Origin: Candidatus Thiodiazotropha endolucinida
GTDB lineage: Bacteria > Pseudomonadota > Gammaproteobacteria > Chromatiales > Chromatiaceae
Assembly: GCF_001715975.1 (NCBI RefSeq)
Contig: NZ_MARB01000013.1
Coordinates: forward strand, 62,001 to 126,000
Direction of reading: 5' to 3'
DNA length: 64,000 bases
Shown here: positions 34,661-53,436 of the stretch, one piece after another
Layout of the letters: every line of letters begins with the position of its first letter
Numbering within the stretch: the first letter of the stretch is position 1
Translations under genes and position numbers: made by a program
The notes under the pieces: generated by a model
Told to the model about the DNA's origin: nothing
Databases searched by the model: none
What the model saw: only the letters and a program-made list of their open reading frames with translations

Positions 34661-35212
34661 ATGATTTTGGATATATCCATAGACAGAGTTCAGTTCCTCC
34701 GTGGCGACGTCAACAGTCGCCGCAGAGGCATACATCCACCCTGGTCGATTGGGGATTCCAGCTTCCTGGAACTCTGCAACCGTTGCGATGAGTGCATCAA
34801 GGCATGCCCGCCCGGAATTATCATCAACGGGTCAGGCGGCTTCCCTGTGATTGACTTCACTCGGGGTCATTGCACATTTTGCGGCGACTGCGTAAAGGCG
34901 TGCCAACCCAAGGCTTTGGAATTCCCTGAAGATTTATCCACTCCACCCTGGTCGCTTGAGATCGAAATCGAACAGTCGTGCCTCTCCCTCAATGGCGTTG
35001 TCTGCAGAAGCTGCGGCGACATCTGCGAGGAACGTGCAATTCGGTTTCAGCTTCAAACGGGTGGCCGCTCACAGCCGCAACCCGATCCTGCAACCTGTAC
35101 CGGTTGCGGGGCCTGCGTCGCAGTTTGTCCGAGTAAATCAATAACAATTACCCCCATTTCAAATGACCACGCGGTATCAACACAAGTCCGTGAGGAGATG
35201 CTCAATCCATGA
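34661..35212 (+). CDS. napF: Ferredoxin-type protein NapF
   Basis: 183 residues. Four Cys motifs for [4Fe-4S] clusters are present: CNRCDECIKACPPGI, CTFCGDCVKACQPKA, a third around CRSCGDICEERAI, and CTGCGACVAVCPSKS. NapF is a cytoplasmic protein needed for maturation of NapA. First gene of the nap operon; its stop codon overlaps the napD start (ATGA). Confidence 0.92.
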   Translation: MILDISIDRVQFLRGDVNSRRRGIHPPWSIGDSSFLELCNRCDECIKACPPGIIINGSGGFPVIDFTRGHCTFCGDCVKACQPKALEFPEDLSTPPWSLEIEIEQSCLSLNGVVCRSCGDICEERAIRFQLQTGGRSQPQPDPATCTGCGACVAVCPSKSITITPISNDHAVSTQVREEMLNP

Positions 35213-35478
35213 ATATATGCAGCTTGATCGTCCATACCAAACCGACCCAGGGAGCCGAGGTGTGCCAACGCCTGCTAGGGTTCCAGGGAGTCGAGGTCCA
35301 TGGAGGAACCGAGGAAGACAAATTGATTGTCACTATTGAGGACGAGGGTGAGTCGATGTCACCCGTGTCAGACACTATGAATGCCCTTCGTGACGTGAAA
35401 GGCGTCGTGAACACTGTTTTGATTTATCACTATGGCGGTGAAGAGTCGATGGAGGAAATGAACCGTGAAATTAACTAG
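35209..35478 (+). CDS. napD: NapA maturation chaperone NapD
   Basis: 89 residues with the ferredoxin-fold NapD pattern: [39 protein letters not shown] and [13 protein letters not shown]. NapD binds the Tat signal of NapA and holds it until cofactor insertion is complete. It overlaps napF by 4 bp and napA by 14 bp, consistent with co-translation. Confidence 0.94.
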
Positions 35479-38035
35479 AAGAGATTTTATTAAGAGTAAT
35501 GCAGTGGCCGCAGCAGCCTCCGTGGCTGGTGTTACCCTGCCGGTCAGCCAATCCGTTGCTGCCGAAGCAGACGACGGCATTCGTTGGGACAAGGCTGCCT
35601 GCCGTTACTGCGGTACCGGCTGCAGCGTACTGATGGGTGTAAAAGACGGTAAAGTCGTGGCCAGTCAGGGCGATCCTGACGCACCGGTCAACAAGGGCCT
35701 CAACTGTATCAAGGGCTACTTTCTGCCGAAGATCCTCTATGGTGAGGATCGGCTGACCAAACCGTTGTTGCGCAAAACCAACGGCAAATATGACAAGAAC
35801 GGCAAATTCGAAGCCGTTTCTTGGGAAGAGGCCTTCAAGACGATGGCCGAGAAATGGGTCGCAGCCCGTAAGGCCAAGGGCCCGAAAGGTGTCGGCATGT
35901 TTGGCTCCGGTCAGTGGACTGTGTGGGAAGGCTATGCCGCACAGAAACTGTTGAAGGCAGGTTTCCGTTCCAACAGCCTGGAACCCAACGCCCGTCACTG
36001 CATGGCCTCTGCGGTAGGCGCCTTCATGCGCGCTTTCGGTATCGATGAGCCGATGGGTTGTTACGACGATCTGGAGCACGCCGATGTCTTCGTGCTGTGG
36101 GGCGCCAACATGGCGGAGATGCACCCGATTCTCTGGTCCCGTCTCACCGACACCCGTCTGACCAAGCCCGGCTGCGAAGTCCATGTGCTCTCCACCTTCG
36201 AGCACCGCTGCTACGAGCTTGCAGATAACGATATGATCTTCGAGCCCCAGACCGATCTGGCGATCCTCAACTACATCGCCAACTACATCATCCAGAACAA
36301 GGCCTATAACAAGGAGTTCATCGACAAGCACGTCAACTTCACCAAGACCCCGACCGATATCGGTTACGGTCTGCGTGCCAATGATCCCCGCGAGAAGGCC
36401 GCCAAGAACCGGAACAAGGGCAAGCTCACCAAGATCAGTTTCGAAGAGTACGCCAAGTCGGTTGAACCCTACACCCTGGAGTACACCTCCAAGCTCTCCA
36501 AGGTACCGAAGGACAAACTGCTGAGACTGGCCAAAGCCTACGCCGATCCCAAGAAGAAGGTCTCCTCTTACTGGACCATGGGCTTCAACCAGCATACCCG
36601 CGGTGTCTGGGTCAACGGCCTCTGTTATAACGTCCACCTGTTGATGGGCAAGATCTCAGAACCCGGCAACAGCCCCTTCTCCCTTACTGGTCAGCCCTCC
36701 GCTTGCGGTACCGCACGCGAGGTCGGCACCTTCACCCACCGTCTGCCCGCAGACCTGGTCACCAAGAAGGATGCCCACTGTAAGTTCGCCGAGAAGACCT
36801 GGAAACTGCCGGCCGGCACGATTCCAAGAGCCAACGGCAAGACCGACGGCGCCGATCAGACCGATATCAGCGGCAAACCCATGGGCAAGACCCTGATCCA
36901 TGCGGTCGCCATGCATCGCGCCCTCAACGACGGCAAGATGAATACCTTCTGGGTCATGTGTAACAACAACATGCAGGCTGCGGCCAACATGAATGACGAG
37001 AGTTATCCCGGTTGGCGCAACCCGGACAACTTCATCACCGTCTCCGACCCCTATCCGACGGTATCGGCCCAGGCCGCAGACCTGATCCTGCCGACCGCCA
37101 TGTGGATCGAGAAGGAGGGTGCCTACGGTAACGCAGAACGTCGTACCCAGTTCTGGCGTCAGCAGGTTGCCGCACCGGGTGAGGCCAAATCTGACGTCTG
37201 GCAGGTCATGGAGTTCGCCAAATACGTCAAGGTCGAGGATGTCTGGCCTGCAGACCTTATCGCGAAAATGCCTGAGTATGCGGGCAAGACCCTGTTTGAC
37301 GTGCTCTACGCCAACGGGCAGGTCGACAAGTTCCCGGTGGAACAGGTCACCGACAGCCGTGGCAACAAGTACGACAACGACGAGTCGGCTGACTTCGGTT
37401 TCTATGTACAGAAGGGTCTGTTCGAAGAGTATCGCCTCTTCAACTCCGTTGAGGGTATCCCGAAAAAGGGTCACGAGATGGCCGACTTCGATACCTACCA
37501 CAAGGTCCGCGGTATGCGCTGGCCTGTGATCGACGGCAAGGAGACCCTGTGGCGTTTCCGCGAAGGCTACGATCCCCATGTGGCCAAGGGTGATGGGGTC
37601 AAGTTCTACGGCAAGCCTGACGGCAAGGCCAACATCATCACCGCGCCCTATGAGCCGGCCGCCGAGCCACCGGATAAAGAGTACGATCTGTGGCTCTGCA
37701 CCGGCCGTGTATTGGAGCACTGGCACTCCGGCTCGATGACCCGTCGCGTACCCGAGCTCTATCGCGCGGTGCCCGACGCGGTGGTCTACATGCATCCGAA
37801 AGACGCCAAGAAACGTCGGCTGCGTAACGGTGCGCTGGCCAAGCTCACCACCCGTCGTGGCGAGATCGTGTGCAAGGTCGACACCAAGGGTCGCAACAAG
37901 TGTCCCGAGGGCCTGATCTTCGTGCCCTGGTTCGATGCGGGACGCCTGGTCAACAAACTGACCCTCGACCAGACCGATCCGCTCTCGAAAGAGACGGACT
38001 ACAAGAAATGCGGTGTCAAGGTGACACGCGCATAG
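35465..38035 (+). CDS. napA: Periplasmic nitrate reductase catalytic subunit NapA
   Basis: 856 residues from GTG 35465. Tat signal RRDFIK at 5-10 with cleavage after VSQSVAA. The [4Fe-4S] ligands are C46, C49, C53 and C81 (CRYCGTGC and NKGLNCIKG). The Mo-bis-MGD ligand is C180 in [14 protein letters not shown]. NapA reduces nitrate to nitrite in the periplasm. It is slightly longer than E. coli NapA (828). The base composition is uniform and high-expression-like, with many GC-ending codons, which also produces long antisense frames. Confidence 0.97.
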
Positions 38036-38045
38036 CTTGTACGGT

Positions 38046-38069
38046 GCCGGTCCGGGCAACCGGACCGGC
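38046..38069 (+). promoter_or_regulatory. Intercistronic hairpin between napA and napG
   Basis: GCCGGTCCGG, a GCAA tetraloop, then CCGGACCGGC: a perfect 10-bp GC stem closed by a GNRA loop, starting 10 bases after the napA stop codon. With no U tract it is more likely an mRNA stabiliser or processing barrier than a full terminator, and could raise napA levels over the downstream genes. Confidence 0.75.
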
Positions 38070-38114
38070 GGTTAACTGAAAACGGAAGCACTGAATCGCA
38101 GTATCACATCAGTC

Positions 38115-38972
38115 ATGTCAGAAACAGAGAGAAAAAACGAGATCAACCGCCGGCAGTTTCTGGGCAATATGCTCAAAACCGCCTGTGGTGTAGGATTGGT
38201 CGGACTGGGACTGGGCGCCTATTCGAAACGGGCCTCTACCATGCCGGCCAACTACATTCGCCCCCCCGGCGCCTTGCCGGAGGAGGATTTTCTCGGCGCC
38301 TGCATTCGCTGCGGCCTCTGTGTGCGCGATTGTCCCTACGACATTCTGTTTCTGGGTGAGGTCGGTGACGAAGTTGCCACGGGAACGCCCTATTTCATCG
38401 CCCGTACCGGGCCGTGTGAGATGTGCGAGGACATTCCCTGTGTGGTGGCCTGTCCCACCAACGCCCTCGACCATGACCTGAAAGATATCGAAGATTCGCG
38501 TATGGGCCTGGCTGTGCTCATCGACCAGGAGAACTGCATTGCGTTCCACGGACTGCGTTGCGAAGTCTGTTTCAATGTCTGTCCGATCCGCAATCGCGCC
38601 ATCACCCTGGACATGCAGCACAACACCCGTTCCGGTAAGCATGCCCTGTTCATTCCCGTGGTCCACTCCGAGGCCTGTACCGGCTGTGGACTCTGTGAAC
38701 GTGCATGCATTCTGGAAGAGGCGGCCATCAAGGTCTTTCCCATGCACCTTGCGAAGGGTGAATTGGGCAAGCACTACCGTTTGGGCTGGGAGGAGAAAGA
38801 GAAAGCGGGCAAGTCACTGGTCACGCCCGACACCGAGCATCGTTACAACCTGCCCGAAGGGGTGCGTTACGACCTGCAGGGTGAAGGCTTGATCATCGAA
38901 GGCGAGGCCGAGGAGACACCCTTCTCCTCCAATCCTCTGGATACACTCAATAGCGGTTTCATGGACAAGTAG
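38115..38972 (+). CDS. napG: Ferredoxin-type protein NapG
   Basis: 285 residues. A Tat-like N-terminus (NRRQFLGNMLKTACGVGLVG) is followed by four [4Fe-4S] motifs: CIRCGLCVRDCPYD, CEMCEDIPCVVACPTN, CEVCFNVCPIRN and CTGCGLCERACILEE. NapG works with NapH as a quinol dehydrogenase that feeds electrons to NapAB in the periplasm. It lies 79 bp after napA and 1 bp before napH. Confidence 0.95.
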   Translation: MSETERKNEINRRQFLGNMLKTACGVGLVGLGLGAYSKRASTMPANYIRPPGALPEEDFLGACIRCGLCVRDCPYDILFLGEVGDEVATGTPYFIARTGPCEMCEDIPCVVACPTNALDHDLKDIEDSRMGLAVLIDQENCIAFHGLRCEVCFNVCPIRNRAITLDMQHNTRSGKHALFIPVVHSEACTGCGLCERACILEEAAIKVFPMHLAKGELGKHYRLGWEEKEKAGKSLVTPDTEHRYNLPEGVRYDLQGEGLIIEGEAEETPFSSNPLDTLNSGFMDK

Positions 38973-38973
38973 C

Positions 38974-39882
38974 ATGTTAGACATGAAGACATTGGGTGAC
39001 GACGCCATTGCCGAAAAAGGCTGGTTCAAGGCCCACAAGTTCCTGATCCTGAGGCGACTCAGTCAACTCGGGATTCTGGCGCTGTTCTTGACCGGTCCCT
39101 GGCTCGGCATCTGGATCGTGAAGGGCAACCTGGCCTCAAACCTGACCCTGGACGTGCTGCCGCTGACCGACCCCTATGTGTTGCTGCAAGCCAGTCTGTC
39201 GGGAGTGGTTCCGGAGACTGCCGCCATTATCGGCGTGGTCATCGTGCTGGTCTTCTACTTCCTGGTGGGAGGCCGGGTCTACTGCTCCTGGGTCTGCCCG
39301 GTCAACATGGTCACCGACCTGGCCGCCTGGTTGCGGCGCAAGCTGGGGATCAGAACCACCTCGCAGCTCTCGCGTTCCACCCGCTACTGGATGTTGGCGC
39401 TGACGTTGATCCTGCCGCTGGTGGTGACCGGGGGCATCATCTGGGAACTGGTCAATCCGGTCTCCATGATGTTCCGCGGCATTGTCTTCGGCATGGGTGC
39501 GGCCTGGATCATGGTCCTGGGGATCTTTCTGTTCGATCTGATTGTGGCTAAAGACGGCTGGTGCGGACACATCTGTCCAGTGGGCGCTTTCTACAACCTG
39601 GTCGGCAGTAAGAGCCTGTTGCGGGTCAACGCCCTTGAGCGTCACGCCTGCAACGACTGTATGGAGTGCTACGTGGTCTGTCCGGAACCGCAGGTGATCA
39701 AGCCGGCGCTGAAGGGAGAGAAGAAGGGGCTGAGCCCGGTGATTCTCTCTTCCGACTGCACCAATTGTGGGCACTGTATCGATATCTGTGCACCAGAGGT
39801 TTTCAGTTATGGCGGACGTCACGCCAAAAAAATCGACGAGTACAAGCGAGAGGTTGAAGTCAATCGGGGTGTCCGGACCTGA
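38974..39882 (+). CDS. napH: Membrane ferredoxin/quinol dehydrogenase NapH
   Basis: 302 residues with four membrane spans. Cytoplasmic CX3CP motifs (CSWVCPVNMV and CGHICPVGAF) typical of NapH/CcoG-like proteins are followed by two [4Fe-4S] motifs (CNDCMECYVVCPEP and CTNCGHCIDICAPE). It oxidises quinol and passes electrons through NapG. It is directly followed by napB. Confidence 0.95.
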   Translation: MLDMKTLGDDAIAEKGWFKAHKFLILRRLSQLGILALFLTGPWLGIWIVKGNLASNLTLDVLPLTDPYVLLQASLSGVVPETAAIIGVVIVLVFYFLVGGRVYCSWVCPVNMVTDLAAWLRRKLGIRTTSQLSRSTRYWMLALTLILPLVVTGGIIWELVNPVSMMFRGIVFGMGAAWIMVLGIFLFDLIVAKDGWCGHICPVGAFYNLVGSKSLLRVNALERHACNDCMECYVVCPEPQVIKPALKGEKKGLSPVILSSDCTNCGHCIDICAPEVFSYGGRHAKKIDEYKREVEVNRGVRT

Positions 39883-39931
39883 CCGGCACATCAAACCAAT
39901 TCTGTTTATGAGAGTGATGATGGAGAAAGGT

Positions 39932-40357
39932 ATGAAAAAAATCGCACTACTGACACTTGCGGCAATCGCAACCATGTTCCTGTCGACTGCCCTGTTGGCC
40001 GACGTTCAATCGCTGCGTGGCGATGCACTCGACACCATGGCGAAAAAACCGGCCGACCTGAAGCTCGTCAATGTGAAAGGCGGCATCGAAAGAAGCTTCA
40101 AGCTGCAACCGCCCATGGTGCCGCACGAAGTGGACAAATACGAAGTCAACCTGAAGAACAACGGTTGCATGAAATGTCACAGCGAAGCCACCTACGAGAA
40201 AGAGAAGGCGCCCAAGGTGGGTGATAGCCACTATGAGGATCGTGAGGGCAAGGTTCTGAAGACTATCTCCAGCCGCCGATACTTCTGTAACCAGTGCCAT
40301 GCACCCCAGGTGGGCGCGGATCCCCTGGTGCAAAACAACTTTCAAGGTGCCAAATAG
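39932..40357 (+). CDS. napB: Diheme cytochrome c subunit NapB
   Basis: 141 residues from the ATG at 39932, which has GGAGAAAGG right before it. A signal peptide (MKKIALLTLAAIATMFLSTA) and two heme c motifs CMKCH (79-83) and CNQCH (119-123) identify it. NapB hands electrons from NapC or NapGH to NapA. The frame is open upstream into napH but that part is not NapB. Confidence 0.95.
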   Translation: MKKIALLTLAAIATMFLSTALLADVQSLRGDALDTMAKKPADLKLVNVKGGIERSFKLQPPMVPHEVDKYEVNLKNNGCMKCHSEATYEKEKAPKVGDSHYEDREGKVLKTISSRRYFCNQCHAPQVGADPLVQNNFQGAK

Positions 40358-40410
40358 TATTCAGCCGAATCGGGTCGCCTCGAATGGAGGCGGCCACGAT
40401 TCACTGAATA
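40358..40410 (+). promoter_or_regulatory. Interrupted hairpin between napB and napC
   Basis: Nested complementary segments TATTCAG/CTGAATA, GAATCG/CGATTC and CGCCTC/GAGGCG fold into one long interrupted stem with a GAATG loop, right after the napB stop codon (which ends at 40357). There is no T tract, so it looks like an RNA-stability element rather than a strong terminator. Confidence 0.65.
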
Positions 40411-40442
40411 GCAGTAGACAAATCAACTAGTGAAAAGTAAGT

Positions 40443-41015
40443 ATGAACGAAAGTAAGAAAAAAGGCGGGCTGTTCCTGATAGCCGTCGGTATCGTTGCCG
40501 GTATCATACTCTGGGGCGGATTCAACACCGCAATGGAGATGACAAATACCGAAACCTTCTGTATTTCATGCCATGAAATGGAACAGACAGTCTACCAAGA
40601 GCTGCAGGAGACGATCCACTTCACCAACAGGACCGGTGTTCGCGCCACCTGCCCTGACTGCCATGTCCCCAAGGAGTGGATCCACAAAGTCGTGCGCAAG
40701 ATTCAGGCGACCAATGAGCTCTACCACAAGATGCTGGGAACCATCGACACGCCGGAGAAGTACGAAGCCAAGCGTCTCGAGCTGGCACAGAATGTCTGGC
40801 GCTCGATGAAGAAGACCGACTCCCGGGAGTGCCGTAACTGCCACAAGTTCGTCTCAATGGATCTGGACAGACAGGCACCACGCAGTTCCGAGCAGCACGA
40901 TCCTCACTACTGGGACGCTGTGGATGGAAAGGAACCGCAAAAAACCTGTATCGATTGCCACAAAGGGATTGCCCATTCACTCCCCGAAGGGTTCGATCCC
41001 AACGCCGAGTTTTAA
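40443..41015 (+). CDS. napC: Tetraheme cytochrome c NapC (NapC/NirT family)
   Basis: 190 residues. One N-terminal membrane anchor (GLFLIAVGIVAGIILWGGF) and four heme c motifs: CISCH at 40, CPDCH at 70, CRNCH at 130 and CIDCH at 169. NapC oxidises membrane quinol and reduces NapB. Having both NapC and NapGH gives two electron routes to NapAB. Last gene of the nap operon. Confidence 0.95.
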   Translation: MNESKKKGGLFLIAVGIVAGIILWGGFNTAMEMTNTETFCISCHEMEQTVYQELQETIHFTNRTGVRATCPDCHVPKEWIHKVVRKIQATNELYHKMLGTIDTPEKYEAKRLELAQNVWRSMKKTDSRECRNCHKFVSMDLDRQAPRSSEQHDPHYWDAVDGKEPQKTCIDCHKGIAHSLPEGFDPNAEF

Positions 41016-48430: not shown

Positions 48431-49162
48431 ATGTCAGACGCTCTAAAAAATTCTCATATTGATGAACACACTGCTGAGACGGCCGGATATCCGATGCAGA
48501 TGGCATTCATTGATCAGCCTCAATGGGATTTAACCATTCCGAAAGGTGTTGACCTGAGCTTGTGGGCCAAACATTTAGCACATTCTGTCGCACGCGAACC
48601 ATTCAACCTGATCAACCATGTTCGCAGAGTACGCTTACACTTGGCATGCAATGATGCTGATGCATCATTCGGCGCCATGCTGGACCTTCACTTGGTACTT
48701 GGCGACAAGGGCATCAGTCTACGGGGCAGCCTTTTACGACAGTTGAAAAAAATACTGCCTCAAGACCGTTATGACCTGTTTCTCAAGCACTATAAGCCTG
48801 GGCTGCGGCCTGATCAGTCGCTGCCCGCCAGTCGCCATTCCGTGCTCGGCAACTTTTTTGCAGGAAATACAATTCTCGTAAAAAAGGAAACCCCTCGAAC
48901 CACGCCCAGCTTGAAACAACAAAACCCATTGGACTTAGCGAGAGAAGAACTCAATTTTGGCGATGTATCCAAGGCACAGCAGATCCTGGAAGAGGCATTG
49001 ATAGAAGCACCGAAAACACCTGAACTGCATCACGAGTTACTGGAACTGTATAGCCATACACGTTCACTTGAAGACCTGATACGCATGCAGGAGAGGCTTG
49101 GCAACAACATTGTTATTGCGCTTGAAGAATGGAATCAGACACGCAGTAAGCTGGAAAATTGA
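48431..49162 (+). CDS. Hypothetical protein with C-terminal FimV/TPR-like helical hairpin (cluster gene 1)
   Basis: 243 residues, soluble. The N-terminal half (about 20-135) is a conserved-looking unknown domain (WAKHLAHSVAREPFNLINHV, then LRQLKKILPQDRYDLFLKHY). The C-terminal part (about 175-235) reads NPLDLAREELNFGDVSKAQQ, ILEEALIEAPKTPELHHELL, the pattern of tetratricopeptide or FimV C-terminal domains that dock polar and pilus proteins. The link to pili is only an inference. It lies 9 bp before gene 2. First gene of the cluster. Confidence 0.72.
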   Translation: MSDALKNSHIDEHTAETAGYPMQMAFIDQPQWDLTIPKGVDLSLWAKHLAHSVAREPFNLINHVRRVRLHLACNDADASFGAMLDLHLVLGDKGISLRGSLLRQLKKILPQDRYDLFLKHYKPGLRPDQSLPASRHSVLGNFFAGNTILVKKETPRTTPSLKQQNPLDLAREELNFGDVSKAQQILEEALIEAPKTPELHHELLELYSHTRSLEDLIRMQERLGNNIVIALEEWNQTRSKLEN

Positions 49163-49171
49163 GGAATCTTT

Positions 49172-50383
49172 ATGTCTGCTCGAAACGATCAAAAGCTATT
49201 CAAAATAGCGCTATTGGGAGTCAGCGATAGGGATATGGCCATGCTCGAACTGTTCCTCCAAGGGCAGAACAAAGATAAATATACCATAGTGCCGGAACAA
49301 CAGGCGCAGTTGTGTATCCTGGATTTAGACAGTTTAAACGGTAAAAAACTACTTCAGCATCAGCGCAATCGCTATCCTCACCGCCCTATACTCGCACTCT
49401 CGGTGCGTGATCAGGAAATTGATGGCGTGCAGTTCCTGCGTAAACCCATAAAGGTCGATTTACTCAAGACAATTATTGACTTTTATCGCAATGAACCAAT
49501 CCATAAAAACGTAGATAACGAAACCAAAACCCCGGTTAAAGTCCAAAAAGTTGAATCTCCTCCTAAGCCGTCAGTACAACCGATCACTACCGGACAGCCT
49601 GATACTGAAGAGAAGCGAATCCCGGTAGGGTTCGCAGCCAACGACACTCAAAATGCCGTACGCAACCTTGAAACGCTTACCCGTATCACCCATGAGTGTT
49701 GTGGCACTGAAAACAGTACAGACTTAGCCAATGGAGCAGACCGCGACAAGCTTTTTTACGATTCCCAAAACCTGTTTCAACACATCCTGGAGACCGCCAT
49801 AGCACGCTGCCGGAAAGATGCATATCCGATCGCCCTCCATCTGCCTGGCGGAAAAAGCATCACCCTTTTGCCAAAAGCCAGTGTTGCTTTGACTGACCTC
49901 AGTGATTCCAGGTTACGCCCACGCTGCCTCATGGCAGTCAAACCGGACGAGATTCGTTTTGAGAATCCTCGCGTTAGCGAAACCAACCTGTTGCGCCTCA
50001 GTAAGCAGACACCTCAAAATATGGACGCGTTGCTCTGGAAAGTGACCTTATGGAGTGCCCGCGGCCGCCTCCCGCTTAATACGGATATTCATGCTCCGGT
50101 GCATCTACGACAGTGGCCTAATTTAACCCGTCTATTGAGTATTTCACCATTTCTTCGTATCGCCGCATTGTGGTCCCGAACTCCGGTTTCCCTGGTCCAG
50201 ACTGCGGATACCCTGGGCATGGAAGCGCGCTATGTTTGTGCCTTTTACTCCGCTTGCCATAACTTGGGCTTGGTACGATTTCAATCAATACCCGGGGGTG
50301 AGGAAATGGTTCAGATGCAAAAAGCAGAGCCTTCACGTAAAGGACTGCTGGGGCGCATCCTGAATCATCTGCGTGCTGCATGA
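49172..50383 (+). CDS. Pseudo-receiver protein with C-terminal winged-helix-like domain (cluster gene 2)
   Basis: 403 residues. The N-terminal 110 residues have a receiver-like fold (FKIALLGVSDRDMAMLELFL, QLCILDLDSLNGKKLLQHQR, PILALSVRDQEIDGVQFLRK), with an Asp in the expected phospho-site region (CILDLDS). A disordered Pro/Lys linker follows (about 115-160). The C-terminal domain ends in a helix-turn-helix-like segment (VSLVQTADTLGMEARYVCAF, then YSACHNLGLVRF). It is probably a regulator or adaptor; DNA binding is not proven. It precedes the GTPase gene by 29 bp. Confidence 0.7.
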   Translation: MSARNDQKLFKIALLGVSDRDMAMLELFLQGQNKDKYTIVPEQQAQLCILDLDSLNGKKLLQHQRNRYPHRPILALSVRDQEIDGVQFLRKPIKVDLLKTIIDFYRNEPIHKNVDNETKTPVKVQKVESPPKPSVQPITTGQPDTEEKRIPVGFAANDTQNAVRNLETLTRITHECCGTENSTDLANGADRDKLFYDSQNLFQHILETAIARCRKDAYPIALHLPGGKSITLLPKASVALTDLSDSRLRPRCLMAVKPDEIRFENPRVSETNLLRLSKQTPQNMDALLWKVTLWSARGRLPLNTDIHAPVHLRQWPNLTRLLSISPFLRIAALWSRTPVSLVQTADTLGMEARYVCAFYSACHNLGLVRFQSIPGGEEMVQMQKAEPSRKGLLGRILNHLRAA

Positions 50384-50412
50384 TGAATGCTGAGACCGGA
50401 TCATGAAAACCT

Positions 50413-50952
50413 ATGGCAAATTATAAAATCATTTTCACCGGCCCTGTAGGCGCCGGCAAAACAACGGCTATCAGCGTTCTGTCAGATGTCCCCATGGTTA
50501 CCACTGATGAGTTGGCCAGTGACATGACGAAAGATCGCAAATCCCAAACCACAGTCGCGATGGATTACGGCATTATGCAGTTGGCTGGAGATGAACGCAT
50601 CCACTTATACGGCACCCCCGGTCAGGAGCGTTTTGACTTTATGTGGGACATTCTCACACAAGGCGGCCTCGGCTTGGTATTGCTGATCGACAATTCACGG
50701 ATCGAACCGTTTCGCGACCTCCACTTTTTTCTTGATGCCTTTAAAGATTTTATCGGCTGTACAGCGGTTTCCATCGGCATTACCCGTATGGATGAAAAGT
50801 CCACCCCGACAATCAGCGATTATCAACGTGAACTGTCCGCCCTCGGCTGGTCCACGCTGCCGCTATTGGAGGTGGATGCCCGCAAAAAGGGCGATGTCTC
50901 TCTATTGGTGCAGTCTCTGCTCTACTCCCTGGATCCCACGTTGGCGAACTAA
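50413..50952 (+). CDS. Ras/Arf-like small GTPase of the MglA/CvnD type (cluster gene 3)
   Basis: 179 residues. P-loop GPVGAGKTT at 10-18, a switch I region around VTTDELASDM, switch II LYGTPGQERFDFMW with Gln71 as in eukaryotic Ras/Arf/Rab, and TRMDE at 124-128 where the classical NKxD motif sits. The length and motifs match the bacterial GTP-binding proteins that pair with roadblock/LC7 partners (MglA-MglB in Myxococcus, CvnD in Streptomyces). Two roadblock-type genes follow, so it is probably a nucleotide-switched cytoplasmic protein with them as GAP or partner. Confidence 0.9.
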   Translation: MANYKIIFTGPVGAGKTTAISVLSDVPMVTTDELASDMTKDRKSQTTVAMDYGIMQLAGDERIHLYGTPGQERFDFMWDILTQGGLGLVLLIDNSRIEPFRDLHFFLDAFKDFIGCTAVSIGITRMDEKSTPTISDYQRELSALGWSTLPLLEVDARKKGDVSLLVQSLLYSLDPTLAN

Positions 50953-50956
50953 TGTT

Positions 50957-51619
50957 ATGACCATGAATCTGGATACCTCCGCCTATTTTGAACCCACCCC
51001 GGCAGGCGCCTTCTATGCGGCGAGTTCAAGCCATATGGAACCGGCAAGACGATTGTTATTTGGCATTCTGGCGCAAGACAGCTGTCCGGTTGCAGTTAGT
51101 GAGCGTCTTACCAACTGGAGCGGACTGGATCAGCAAGCGACCGTGGAGCTGATCTCCAGGCTACAGGACCTCGGCTGGTTGACTGGACTCGATTCCCCCC
51201 TGTCGGCACCGGTGGGCCCGCTGGAGGATGTACTGCCTGAACTGTTGAAGCAGCTTTCCTTCACCGGCAAGGCGCTGCTGGCGGACAACCAGGGATTTTA
51301 CCTTGCGACCAGCGGTATACCTCATGAGGCCGCTGAAGCGCTATCCGCCGTCAGTGCCGATCTGGGTTCCCTGTATGAACGCCACCAGCACTTGCTCGCC
51401 AATAACCTGGGCCTGAACCAACAAGCTTGGACGCTGGCTGACGCCTCAGGCAACAGCCAGCTTGGATTCTGGCCCCTGCATATCGGCCAACAACGCTTTG
51501 TGCTGGTTGTCGAAGACCGTCCCTGCCTCAATCAACCGGCATTTCGCGATCTGGTGTGGACACTAACCCTGCGTTACTCGACAGAAAAACTATGGGAGAA
51601 CCAAACCGACAATGAGTGA
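50957..51619 (+). CDS. Winged-helix plus roadblock-like fusion protein (cluster gene 4)
   Basis: 220 residues from ATG 50957, four bases after the GTPase stop. The N-terminal part (about 8-80: MEPARRLLFGILAQDSCPVA, LISRLQDLGWLTGL) looks like a small winged helix. The C-terminal part (about 85-205: LLKQLSFTGKALLADNQGFY, LATSGIPHEAAEALSAVSAD, LRYSTEKLWEN) has the strand-helix pattern and 'which-ligand-was-seen' position typical of roadblock/LC7 proteins. It is a candidate GTPase partner. Domain assignment is by eye only. Confidence 0.62.
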   Translation: MTMNLDTSAYFEPTPAGAFYAASSSHMEPARRLLFGILAQDSCPVAVSERLTNWSGLDQQATVELISRLQDLGWLTGLDSPLSAPVGPLEDVLPELLKQLSFTGKALLADNQGFYLATSGIPHEAAEALSAVSADLGSLYERHQHLLANNLGLNQQAWTLADASGNSQLGFWPLHIGQQRFVLVVEDRPCLNQPAFRDLVWTLTLRYSTEKLWENQTDNE

Positions 51620-51755
51620 CATCAACAGGGTGGAGCGAAAACTCTGTGAATCATTCTGCCAAATCGAAGAGCTTGACCAACTCTTCCGGATAACAGGCAT
51701 GAGCCGGACACTGCTCAACAATATGGTCGGTACTTACATAAAAACAGAACCCTAG
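51612..51755 (+). CDS. 47-residue peptide in the GTPase cluster (cluster gene 5)
   Basis: ATG at 51612 overlaps the preceding stop by 8 bp (ATGAGTGA) and gives MSDINRVERKLCESFCQIEE, then LDQLFRITGMSRTLLNNMVG, then TYIKTEP, ending at TAG 51753-51755. The tight overlap suggests translational coupling. The peptide is helical with two Cys residues and has no known family. It could be a small adaptor, or a chance frame. Confidence 0.55.
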   Translation: MSDINRVERKLCESFCQIEELDQLFRITGMSRTLLNNMVGTYIKTEP

Positions 51756-51794
51756 CTGTATTAATTTTTTATACCACTCCAGGAGTAAACGACA

Positions 51795-52157
51795 ATGCGT
51801 GAAGACATGTTGGCATCGATATTGAGTGAGCTCAACGGCACCTCTGCAGACATAGAGGCCTCTGCGGTCATATCTACTGACGGCCTGATCATGGCCTCCC
51901 TGTTACCCGCCAACCTGGATGAGGACCGGGTGGGTGCGATGAGTGCAGCCATGCTCTCCCTGGGTGACCGAACCGCCCAAGAACTGGCCCGTGGGGAACT
52001 TGAACAGGTATTGATTAAGGGTAATCAGGGCTATGTCATCATGACCCATGCCGGTGAAGAAGCGGTCATATCCGTTTTAGCCAAATCCAGCACTAAACTT
52101 GGTTTGATCTTCCTTGATGTGAAACGAGCGGCGGAAGGTATCTCAAAACTCATCTAA
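51795..52157 (+). CDS. Roadblock/LC7-domain protein, MglB-like (cluster gene 6)
   Basis: 120 residues covering one roadblock domain: MLASILSELNGTSADIEASA, VISTDGLIMASLLPANLDED, VGAMSAAMLSLGDRTAQELA, QVLIKGNQGYVIMTHAGEEA, VISVLAKSSTKLGLIFLDVK. MglB-type proteins of this length dimerise and act as GTPase-activating partners of MglA. A GGAG lies upstream of the ATG. With the GTPase in the same operon, a GAP-like role is the best guess. Confidence 0.9.
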   Translation: MREDMLASILSELNGTSADIEASAVISTDGLIMASLLPANLDEDRVGAMSAAMLSLGDRTAQELARGELEQVLIKGNQGYVIMTHAGEEAVISVLAKSSTKLGLIFLDVKRAAEGISKLI

Positions 52158-52191
52158 CCGTACTCAGTGAGACCACTTGGAGCTCATTACC

Positions 52192-52665
52192 ATGCATGAT
52201 ATGAACCCAGACGACATTGTTGGCGAATACCGTGAGCACACGCTCACCTTCCAGGATGGCACTAGTCGCCATGTTTTGGTGACGGATATCGAGTCACCCT
52301 ATCCGGATGGTCGCCTCATCGTTTCCCGTACCGATCCCGCCGGTATCATCACCCAGGTCAACCACTCCTTTGTGGAGATGGCCGTTTACAGTGAAGAAGA
52401 GCTGCTGGGTCAGCCTCACCACATCCTGCGTCATCCGGACATGCCTCCGGCTGCCTTCAAGGATTTATGGGATACGGTGCAAAAAGGAGAAAAGTGGCAT
52501 GGCTATGTTAAAAATCTGCGAAAGGATGGCGGCTTCTATTGGGTATTGGCGACGGTTATCCCCAATGTGCGTAACGGCAAGATTACCGGTTACACCTCTG
52601 TCCGCCGTAAACCTGCCCGGAGAAAGGTCGAGGAGTGCATCAAGACCTACCCAACCCTATTCTAA
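52192..52665 (+). CDS. Aer-type PAS-domain sensor protein (cluster gene 7)
   Basis: 157 residues from ATG 52192, which has GGAG nine bases upstream; an in-frame TTG at 52177 is possible. A single PAS domain: VSRTDPAGIITQVNHSFVEM, ELLGQPHHILRHPDMPPAAF, KGEKWHGYVKNLRKDGGFYW, VLATVIPNVRNGKITGYTSV. RHPDMP and W-x-G-x-VKN-x-RK-x-G match the FAD-binding PAS of the E. coli aerotaxis receptor Aer, but here there is no membrane or chemotaxis domain. A cytoplasmic redox or energy sensor is a good guess; FAD binding is inferred. Confidence 0.85.
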   Translation: MHDMNPDDIVGEYREHTLTFQDGTSRHVLVTDIESPYPDGRLIVSRTDPAGIITQVNHSFVEMAVYSEEELLGQPHHILRHPDMPPAAFKDLWDTVQKGEKWHGYVKNLRKDGGFYWVLATVIPNVRNGKITGYTSVRRKPARRKVEECIKTYPTLF

Positions 52666-52680
52666 GCTGGAGATCCCAAG

Positions 52681-53436
52681 ATGCCATTTCAACTCACTGT
52701 AAGCCCTGACTTTACACCCGATCATATCTCCGGCTGGTATATATTCAACACCTGGCTGCAGAAGGCCCTTGATGAAGGGGTCCATCTGGAGCTATACAAT
52801 AATTTCAACGATCAGCGGTCCGCGATCCAATCCGACCAGGTGGATCTGATCTATGCCAATCCCTACGATGCGGCCATGCTGGTGCGCGAAAAAGGATTCC
52901 TGCCTGTGGCCAGGCCCGGCGGTGTGGCGGATGAAGCGATTATTGCTGTACGGGATGACAGCTCAACACAGGTAGTGGAAGACCTAAGCAGCGGAATACG
53001 AATCGCCGCTACCGATGATCCCGACGTCAACCTCATGTGCGCCATCATGCTCGAACCGGCCGAACTCAATGCCGAGAACACACAACGCGAGGAGAAGGAA
53101 AGCTACCCGCTTGTTGCCAAGGCTGTGATCCAAGGTCAGGTTGATCTGGGTTTCTTTCTGGCTGAGGCATTTAACTCTCTGTCCGGCGTCACCCGCAAGC
53201 AGTTGCGTCCACTCGTCACCAGTCAGATCCATATCATCCACCATGCCTTACTGGTAGGTCCCAAGCTGGCGCACAGGCAACAGCAGCTGAGCGAATTGTT
53301 GGCGGGTATGTCTGAGGATCCCAAGGGGAGCGGTGTACTTCAATCTCTGGGTTTCGATAGCTGGGTAAAGGTCGAGGAGGAAGAGATGGAATTCATGATC
53401 GACTTAATGGATACGCTGACCTATCAACCCGCCTGA
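52681..53436 (+). CDS. PhnD-like solute-binding protein without signal peptide (cluster gene 8)
   Basis: 251 residues. The PhnD/PF12974-type fold is indicated by FQLTVSPDFTPDHISGWYIF, VDLIYANPYDAAMLVREKGF, IRIAATDDPDVNLMCAIMLE and VIQGQVDLGFFLAEAFNSLS. Normal PhnD proteins are periplasmic and have a signal peptide and neighbouring transporter genes. Here the protein starts directly at the domain and no permease or ATPase gene is near. It is therefore more likely a cytoplasmic ligand sensor in the cluster. Confidence 0.8.
   Translation: MPFQLTVSPDFTPDHISGWYIFNTWLQKALDEGVHLELYNNFNDQRSAIQSDQVDLIYANPYDAAMLVREKGFLPVARPGGVADEAIIAVRDDSSTQVVEDLSSGIRIAATDDPDVNLMCAIMLEPAELNAENTQREEKESYPLVAKAVIQGQVDLGFFLAEAFNSLSGVTRKQLRPLVTSQIHIIHHALLVGPKLAHRQQQLSELLAGMSEDPKGSGVLQSLGFDSWVKVEEEEMEFMIDLMDTLTYQPA

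Follow-up and report, generated by a model that had tools for sequence, protein, structure and literature searches.

The closest described relatives of the locus reported here are the Group 3 MglA systems, a beta- and gammaproteobacterial class of small GTPases set out by Wuichet and Sogaard-Andersen in 2014 (PMC4316618). According to the available text of that account, their GTPases carry GTPGQ, a threonine in G2, a G4 motif departing from [NT]KxD and DAR in G5, and are accompanied by a partner with a REC-like N-terminus and by one or two MglB homologues. These features, the REC-like N-terminus through a weak match, and the beta/gamma distribution are shared by an eight-gene cluster at positions 48431-53436 of a 64,000-nucleotide stretch of the Candidatus Thiodiazotropha endolucinida genome (contig NZ_MARB01000013.1; hereafter the window), in which genes for putative sensor proteins are added to the core. 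The cluster is one signalling unit with a conserved gene order. With confidence poised about midway, we read it as a sensor-equipped Group 3 MglA-type G-protein system in which redox or oxygen sensors would bias the GTPase and polar type IV pili would be the output. The cluster consists of eight co-directional open reading frames (ORFs) on the + strand:

48431-49162, + strand: T, a soluble protein of 243 residues with one weak hairpin resembling a tetratricopeptide repeat (TPR) at residues ~166-206; first gene of the extended operon
49172-50383, + strand: R, 403 residues, with a REC-like N-terminal domain, a variable linker, a conserved C-terminal domain and a basic C-terminal tail
50413-50952, + strand: G, an MglA-type small GTPase of 179 residues with GPVGAGKT, GTPGQ, G4 TRMD and G5 DAR
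50957-51619, + strand: W, 220 residues, with a putative winged-helix N-terminal half and a roadblock-like C-terminal half
51612-51755, + strand: a 47-residue stub, most likely the C-terminal remnant of a protoglobin whose heme-binding part is gone
51795-52157, + strand: B, an MglB-type roadblock protein of 120 residues with a DG pair (D29 G30)
52192-52665, + strand: P, a free-standing Aer-type PAS protein of 157 residues with an RHPD flavin motif and no output domain
52681-53436, + strand: D, a PhnD/PtxB-like binding protein of 251 residues, apparently cytoplasmic, with DPDV and Tyr at the STS-H positions

Three other described systems can be set beside this arrangement. The Snodgrassella mgl group 3 locus also combines one mglA with two coupled mglB genes (plus an orphan mglB there), but no sensors are reported for it in the text available (PMC11112851). 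The actinobacterial conservons (AGPS) likewise form an operon of GTPase, roadblock protein and separate presumed sensors or modulators, CvnE and CvnF; they have, however, the histidine-kinase-like CvnA (PMC13343842), whereas Pfam and NCBIfam scans found no kinase domain in the window's eight proteins. In Myxococcus, MglA, MglB, RomR, SgmX and SofG offer possible counterparts of G, B, R, T and the pilus output (PMC7519303, PMC9481161, PMC4316618). Myxococcus MglA, in contrast, belongs to Group 1, with TVPGQ and an arginine finger, its partners are encoded away from mglA, and the available text of these papers mentions no flavin or heme sensor.

The sequence-only reading that first drew attention to the cluster had listed the same eight same-strand ORFs with short gaps or overlaps, and all were recovered, with intergenic distances of 9, 29, 4, -8, 39, 34 and 15 bp in order from T to D. 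Family labels were assigned by Pfam and NCBIfam scans with curated cut-offs, which support B, P, D and G and leave T, R and W under the cut-off. The earlier labels of the first four were accordingly confirmed (Robl_LC7 for B, PAS_3 for P, Phosphonate-bd for D and ATP_bind_1 as the best hit for G, with the motifs GPVGAGKT and GTPGQERF as given), while those of T, R and W find only weak matches (TPR_14 E=1.8e-4, Response_reg E=0.014 and Robl_LC7 E=0.004, respectively).

The gene set recurs well beyond the window. In set A, the loci fetched by similarity, 46 of the 53 complete loci contained all seven full-length genes, and P and D occurred in exactly these 46. The operon occurs in Methylococcales, Chromatiales, Thiotrichales and some betaproteobacteria, and one of its carriers is the laboratory methanotroph Methylotuvimicrobium buryatense 5G (L058). 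The sequence-only reading had staked its proposed module on conservation of gene order in related genomes, and the exact order is shared by 41 of these set A loci. Against the two nearest genomes (L216, L217), the ratio of non-synonymous to synonymous substitution rates (dN/dS) was 0 for B, 0.04 for G, 0.07 for P, 0.09 for D, 0.09-0.10 for W, 0.11-0.14 for T and 0.13 for R. The cluster goes beyond chance, given its recurrence in content and order and the low dN/dS (0-0.14) of every gene but the stub. Promoter- and terminator-like sites at the cluster were no more frequent than in shuffled sequences. A defence system was considered and rejected, as seven of the eight proteins (the stub left out) gave no PADLOC match at E<=0.001.

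The core of REC-like protein, GTPase and roadblock protein matches the published Group 3 MglA type as judged from motifs and neighbours, the GTPase tree having been built without named references for the five groups. For G, the Pfam match to ATP_bind_1 reached E=2.3e-11 and that to Ras E=8.5e-4, under the cut-off. GTPGQ is present in G and in 161 of 178 GTPases scanned, TVPGQ in none of the 178. A threonine occupies the position of the Group 1 arginine in G2, within a TTVAMDYG that is invariant in 19 aligned sequences (TT pattern in 164/178). The G4 of the window protein, TRMD, is one of the two commonest among the GTPases caught by the pattern, the other being TQMD, and its G5 DAR has parallels in the 139 of 178 sequences with [DE]AR past residue 100. 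B is a clear roadblock protein (Robl_LC7 E=2.6e-16) with solved relatives in 7f8m (E=4.2e-24) and MglB (E=0.0018); its D29 and G30 are kept in at least 95% of 138 sequences, a stricter DG pattern in 125 of 154 and any DG in all 154.

R fits the Group 3 'protein of unknown function' in layout and conserved ends, as far as the available text describes it (PMC4316618), and its REC match is weak: besides the sub-cut-off Pfam score there is an EvgA receiver match at E=0.14, and none of 45 family members matches Pfam at E<=0.01. Across the same 45 sequences, D53, K91 and P92 are invariant and D51 and S77 are kept in at least 90%; the customary acidic pair after strand 1 appears replaced in the alignment, by eye. 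'Pseudo-receiver', as R had been called, is a fair if unproven description, and phosphorylation of R is doubtful. The conserved D51, S77 and K91 would also suit a DNA-binding response-regulator-like factor set by the GTPase, with the sensors tuning expression to oxygen or redox state, and for the Group 3 partner the C-terminal region has been read as a winged helix and transcription control proposed (PMC4316618). We regard such transcriptional control as unlikely. The replaced acidic pair makes phosphorylation questionable, the FimV, bactofilin and pilB neighbours described below point to the envelope, and the basic tail of R could suit membrane or protein docking. A tail motif, defined after the sequences had been viewed, occurs in 96 of 106 extended-type R proteins, 10 of 34 simple ones and 8 of 1423 other genes; the tail is more amphipathic than shuffled versions in only 22 of 106 cases, a weak hint of a membrane helix.

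W and T match known families only weakly. Robl_LC7 matches at E<=0.01 were obtained for 8 of 53 W members (window included), an hhalign comparison of W with B gave E=0.0015 at a probability of 17%, and the best match of W among solved structures had E=0.12. Simple loci carry a second roadblock-type protein of 135 residues (hhalign 97%), and W is a possible second MglB-like partner. The T family was found in 71 of 82 loci. Its proposed 'TPR/FimV-like' nature amounts to the weak TPR_14 match and, for FimV, a hint: hhalign against the FimV C-terminal region gave a probability of 27%. Membership of T in the FimV family was rejected, since besides this low probability FimV_Cterm matches only 3 of 57 T proteins at E<=0.01, fewer than PilW (11), LapB (6) or PrsT (6).

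Downstream of this core lie P and D. The first in-frame start of P is a TTG at 52177, and an ATG follows at 52192. Its label as an Aer-type PAS was borne out: Pfam finds PAS families alone (PAS_3 E=3.9e-15), with no HAMP or chemoreceptor signalling domain, and the best match among solved structures is the aerotaxis receptor 8dik (E=1.9e-35), followed by 3ewk (E=7.9e-24), which we take to be MmoS. P shares the PAS sequence with both, and with Aer the RHPD flavin motif, but unlike them it stands free, without HAMP, chemoreceptor or kinase part. The RHPD aspartate, kept in at least 90% of 73 sequences, corresponds by alignment and count to D60 of Aer; AerD60N is unable to bind FAD (PMC13059710). 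By sequence, P fits a flavin PAS.

D belongs to the same PF12974 family as PhnD, PtxB and ArrX (E=4.3e-40; by profile PtxB E=5.6e-6, ArrX E=9.2e-4). It differs from them in two respects. The STS-H ligand motif of PtxB/PhnD (PMC5700983) is absent, the aligned positions being DPDV and Tyr, and D113, P114, D115 and Y142 are kept in at least 90% of 38 sequences. Neither D nor 50 relatives shows a hydrophobic N-terminal stretch (highest 12-residue hydropathy 1.19, no dedicated signal-peptide program being used), in agreement with the earlier view of a PhnD-like protein lacking a signal peptide. With STS-H lost, phosphonate sensing is unlikely and was rejected as a role; D may instead have turned into a protein partner.

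To relate the families to each other, partial correlations of family distances were calculated over 53 loci. The strongest was P-D (0.46), followed by T-W (0.38), G-W (0.34), R-B (0.33), R-W (0.31), G-P (0.29; 0.17-0.37), R-G (0.28) and G-B (0.24), with B-P (-0.05), T-G (-0.06) and G-D (-0.10) near or below zero. These values supersede an earlier 54-locus run that included a slot-type D protein and over-long starts (P-D 0.22, 0.15-0.53; T-W 0.42). The pattern suggests that the P-D pair reaches the core through P and G. It also bears on the idea that P and D are passengers, sharing the promoter as an independent pair of genes but having no effect on the GTPase. Gains or losses of the pair number about 12 on the GTPase tree, compared with 10 changes for the globin and 3 for the extended core. 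Of 20 complete loci with T and W in the class sample, 12 lack the P-D pair, and two loci of that sample show a PAS match but no D. The G-P correlation speaks against passengers, as does gene order, in which P follows B in 60 of 89 cases and D follows P in 67 of 78 (sets A and C, duplicates included). Moreover, a survey of 80 hand-picked genomes (40 of 65 with the GTPase and 40 of 304 without it) revealed no cassette-type D beyond the operon: at E<=1e-70, a line set after the scores were seen, it occurs in 8 of 40 GTPase-bearing genomes, always within the operon, and in 0 of 40 lacking ones. Taken together, we find the passenger explanation improbable.

At E<=1e-30, 10 of the 40 GTPase-bearing genomes and none of the 40 lacking ones had D-like genes; three weaker copies (G060, G205) lay outside the operon. 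That the D gene travels with secretion ATPases in these two genomes was rejected, the three copies being divergent (E 1e-59 to 1e-39). A divergent PhnD-like gene lies at L237:5906-7143 beside a 128-residue protein that is not a PAS, near a secretin-like gene (by eye), with no GTPase gene called nearby. In L236, the D ORF was lost to an overlapping ORF in gene calling.

The slot between W and B provides a further link to oxygen. The 47-residue peptide, counted before as a gene of its own, matches only the C-terminal tail of protoglobin, contains no globin core or proximal histidine, and has dN/dS values of 0.60-0.74 against L216 and L217 (45 codons only). A conserved signalling peptide was therefore rejected, the near-neutral evolution and tail match indicating that the stub is most likely a decaying remnant. 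Full-length protoglobin genes occupy the same position in the congeneric loci L218-L220 (187 residues) and in other loci (PF11563 E=1.2e-23 in L027), and the histidine aligned with VHV of a solved globin-coupled kinase (proximal His) is kept in at least 95% of 23 globins. In the organism's own genome, a second, paralogous operon on contig C4 reads T R G W B and then encodes a CZB protein in place of P and D; its GTPase is 63% identical to G. Three histidines and one cysteine, which we take to be zinc ligands, are conserved in at least 95% of 12 CZB proteins, nearly all from one genus. Since the sensor types are an Aer-type flavin PAS, a protoglobin and a CZB protein, an oxygen or redox input is indicated. 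In some Thiodiazotropha genomes (L230, L234, and L102, the same record as L232), the second operon was called as R, G and CZB without T, W and B, which could mean either that the CZB protein is linked directly to the GTPase or that the system is in decay.

In the sensor-equipped system that we favour, G would be the GTP/GDP switch, and B, probably with W, would act as roadblock-type regulators setting its GTPase rate. R may serve as an adaptor with an atypical receiver domain in a RomR-like layout, and T as a TPR-like partner comparable to SgmX. P, presumably through its flavin, would read the electron-transport or redox state, paired with D, which, its phosphonate/phosphite site gone, may bind another ligand or interact with a protein instead. 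Related operons have a heme protoglobin or a zinc CZB protein in the neighbouring slot. Although the operon encodes neither a histidine kinase nor a membrane receptor, these soluble sensors would bias the GTP/GDP state of G and thereby set the place and time of polar type IV pilus assembly through PilB, so that surface movement or attachment would follow oxygen or redox conditions.

The pilus output is modelled on the neighbourhoods of related operons, the distribution of PilB and the Myxococcus analogues. In L138, pilB (TIGR02538, 873 bits, over cut-off) lies 240 bp past the operon, and further on follow a PilC-like protein (430 bits; cut-off 700), a 293-residue protein that has no NCBIfam match and is PilD-like by eye, and a CoaE-like protein, also by eye. 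In a Thiothrix-, Leucothrix- and Sphaerotilus-type clade, a FimV/HubP gene is found downstream (over the curated cut-off in 8 of 8 scanned; L088 and L092 by similarity) and a bactofilin gene upstream (PF04519 E=1.2e-24 in L105; nine other non-duplicate loci by phmmer). PilB, counted by hand in the 80 genomes, scored over cut-off in 37 of 40 GTPase-bearing and 22 of 40 lacking genomes (p=0.00024, ancestry ignored). In the own genome, PilT, PilM and FimV all score over cut-off. In Myxococcus, MglA-GTP acts on PilB through the TPR protein SgmX (PMC7519303), RomR/RomX is a guanine nucleotide exchange factor and MglB/RomY a GTPase-activating protein (PMC9481161), a role that B may share. SofG positions PilB and PilT, and a title cited in the same account names a bactofilin cytoskeleton (PMC4316618). 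Mutation of the Snodgrassella group 3 mglB gave motile flares on soft agar (PMC11112851). Control of polar type IV pili is the likeliest output, and the tie to polarity or pili suggested earlier gains support from pilB, FimV and bactofilin neighbours elsewhere, with the pilus output itself still an inference.

Alternatively, the sensors could govern another envelope or motility system, such as flagella, cyclic di-GMP turnover or exopolysaccharide. The largest neighbour cluster (41 loci) consists of mixed signalling proteins, represented by a DUF3391/HD-domain protein, and chemoreceptors are known to contain Aer and CZB domains (PMC13059710). That cluster, however, lumps unlike multi-domain proteins, and, the Aer-type PAS aside, the eight proteins match no chemotaxis or flagellar family in Pfam or NCBIfam; we give this alternative little credence.

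Several observations weigh against the favoured pilus-linked reading, in addition to the proposed transcription role of the Group 3 partner and the class-sample loci without P or D. The folds of T and W are unproven, their assignments coming from weak matches, and D, its known ligand motif gone, may not be a sensor at all. FimV adjacency corresponds to 2 changes and bactofilin adjacency to 1 on the GTPase tree, about one event, albeit one spanning beta- and gammaproteobacteria, and pilB adjacency is seen in one locus. No relative of the L138 pilB, pilC and pilD-like genes or of FimV was found in the fetched stretches of the window's genus. When only genomes of at least 2.5 Mb are compared, the PilB contrast shrinks to 35/38 vs 16/23 (p=0.032, ancestry ignored). 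The own genome, with a sub-cut-off PilB match (423/564 positions), is among the 3 in 40 GTPase-bearing genomes that fall short.

Further variants of the operon were noted in single loci. At L074:11232-15058, the W-B slot contains two genes, one for an 898-residue SiaA-like phosphatase of SpoIIE type that includes a PAS, the other for a fusion of a STAS protein with a second PhnD-like domain; they may form a further input or output module. A family of ~133-155 residues occupies the slot in two Halothiobacillus and two other loci (L041:11258-11722; relatives in L029, L047 and L068), and its L041 member has no Pfam match. In the Methylophaga-labelled locus L096:3563-10534, the genes are rearranged to T W D B P D R R G, R and D each being present twice. 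A hemerythrin-domain protein (PF01814 E=4.5e-13), a possible further oxygen-binding partner, is encoded upstream of the operon at L031:7460-7855, in a genome of Methylobacter. In the window itself, a 499-bp gap separates T from a TIGR04211 SH3 protein gene on its 5' side, the opposite-strand gene 3' of D is presumably PtsP-like, and genes at 34661-41015 resemble, by eye, a periplasmic nitrate reductase cluster (nap type).

The sequence-only reading had presented the cluster as a new module. The core is already published as Group 3 MglA; the sensor extension is apparently undescribed so far. In the available text, the Group 3 account mentions no partner of T, PAS, PhnD-like, protoglobin or CZB type, 'PAS' occurring 0 times in its main text (PMC4316618), and no paper was found in the open-licence PMC literature in which Aer-type PAS, PhnD, protoglobin or CZB proteins are linked with such a GTPase system. 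In the same literature, Group 3 prokaryotic Ras-like GTPases have no known input signal; the Aer-type PAS, with protoglobin or CZB in relatives, makes this input concrete as oxygen, electron flow or oxidants.

More tentatively, and with clearly less confidence than in the sensor-equipped system itself, we suggest that these operons may be a small-G-protein counterpart of chemotaxis, in which interchangeable soluble oxygen or redox sensors (flavin PAS with a repurposed binding protein, heme globin or zinc CZB) would act on a single conserved Ras-like GTPase/roadblock core, giving pilus-based aerotaxis or energy taxis without a chemoreceptor or kinase. Candidatus Thiodiazotropha are symbionts of lucinid clams, and the hosts of the operon are methane- and sulfur-oxidizers on oxygen gradients, some of them animal symbionts. 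If our reading is true, these bacteria would possess a G-protein switch that takes exchangeable sensors without a kinase.

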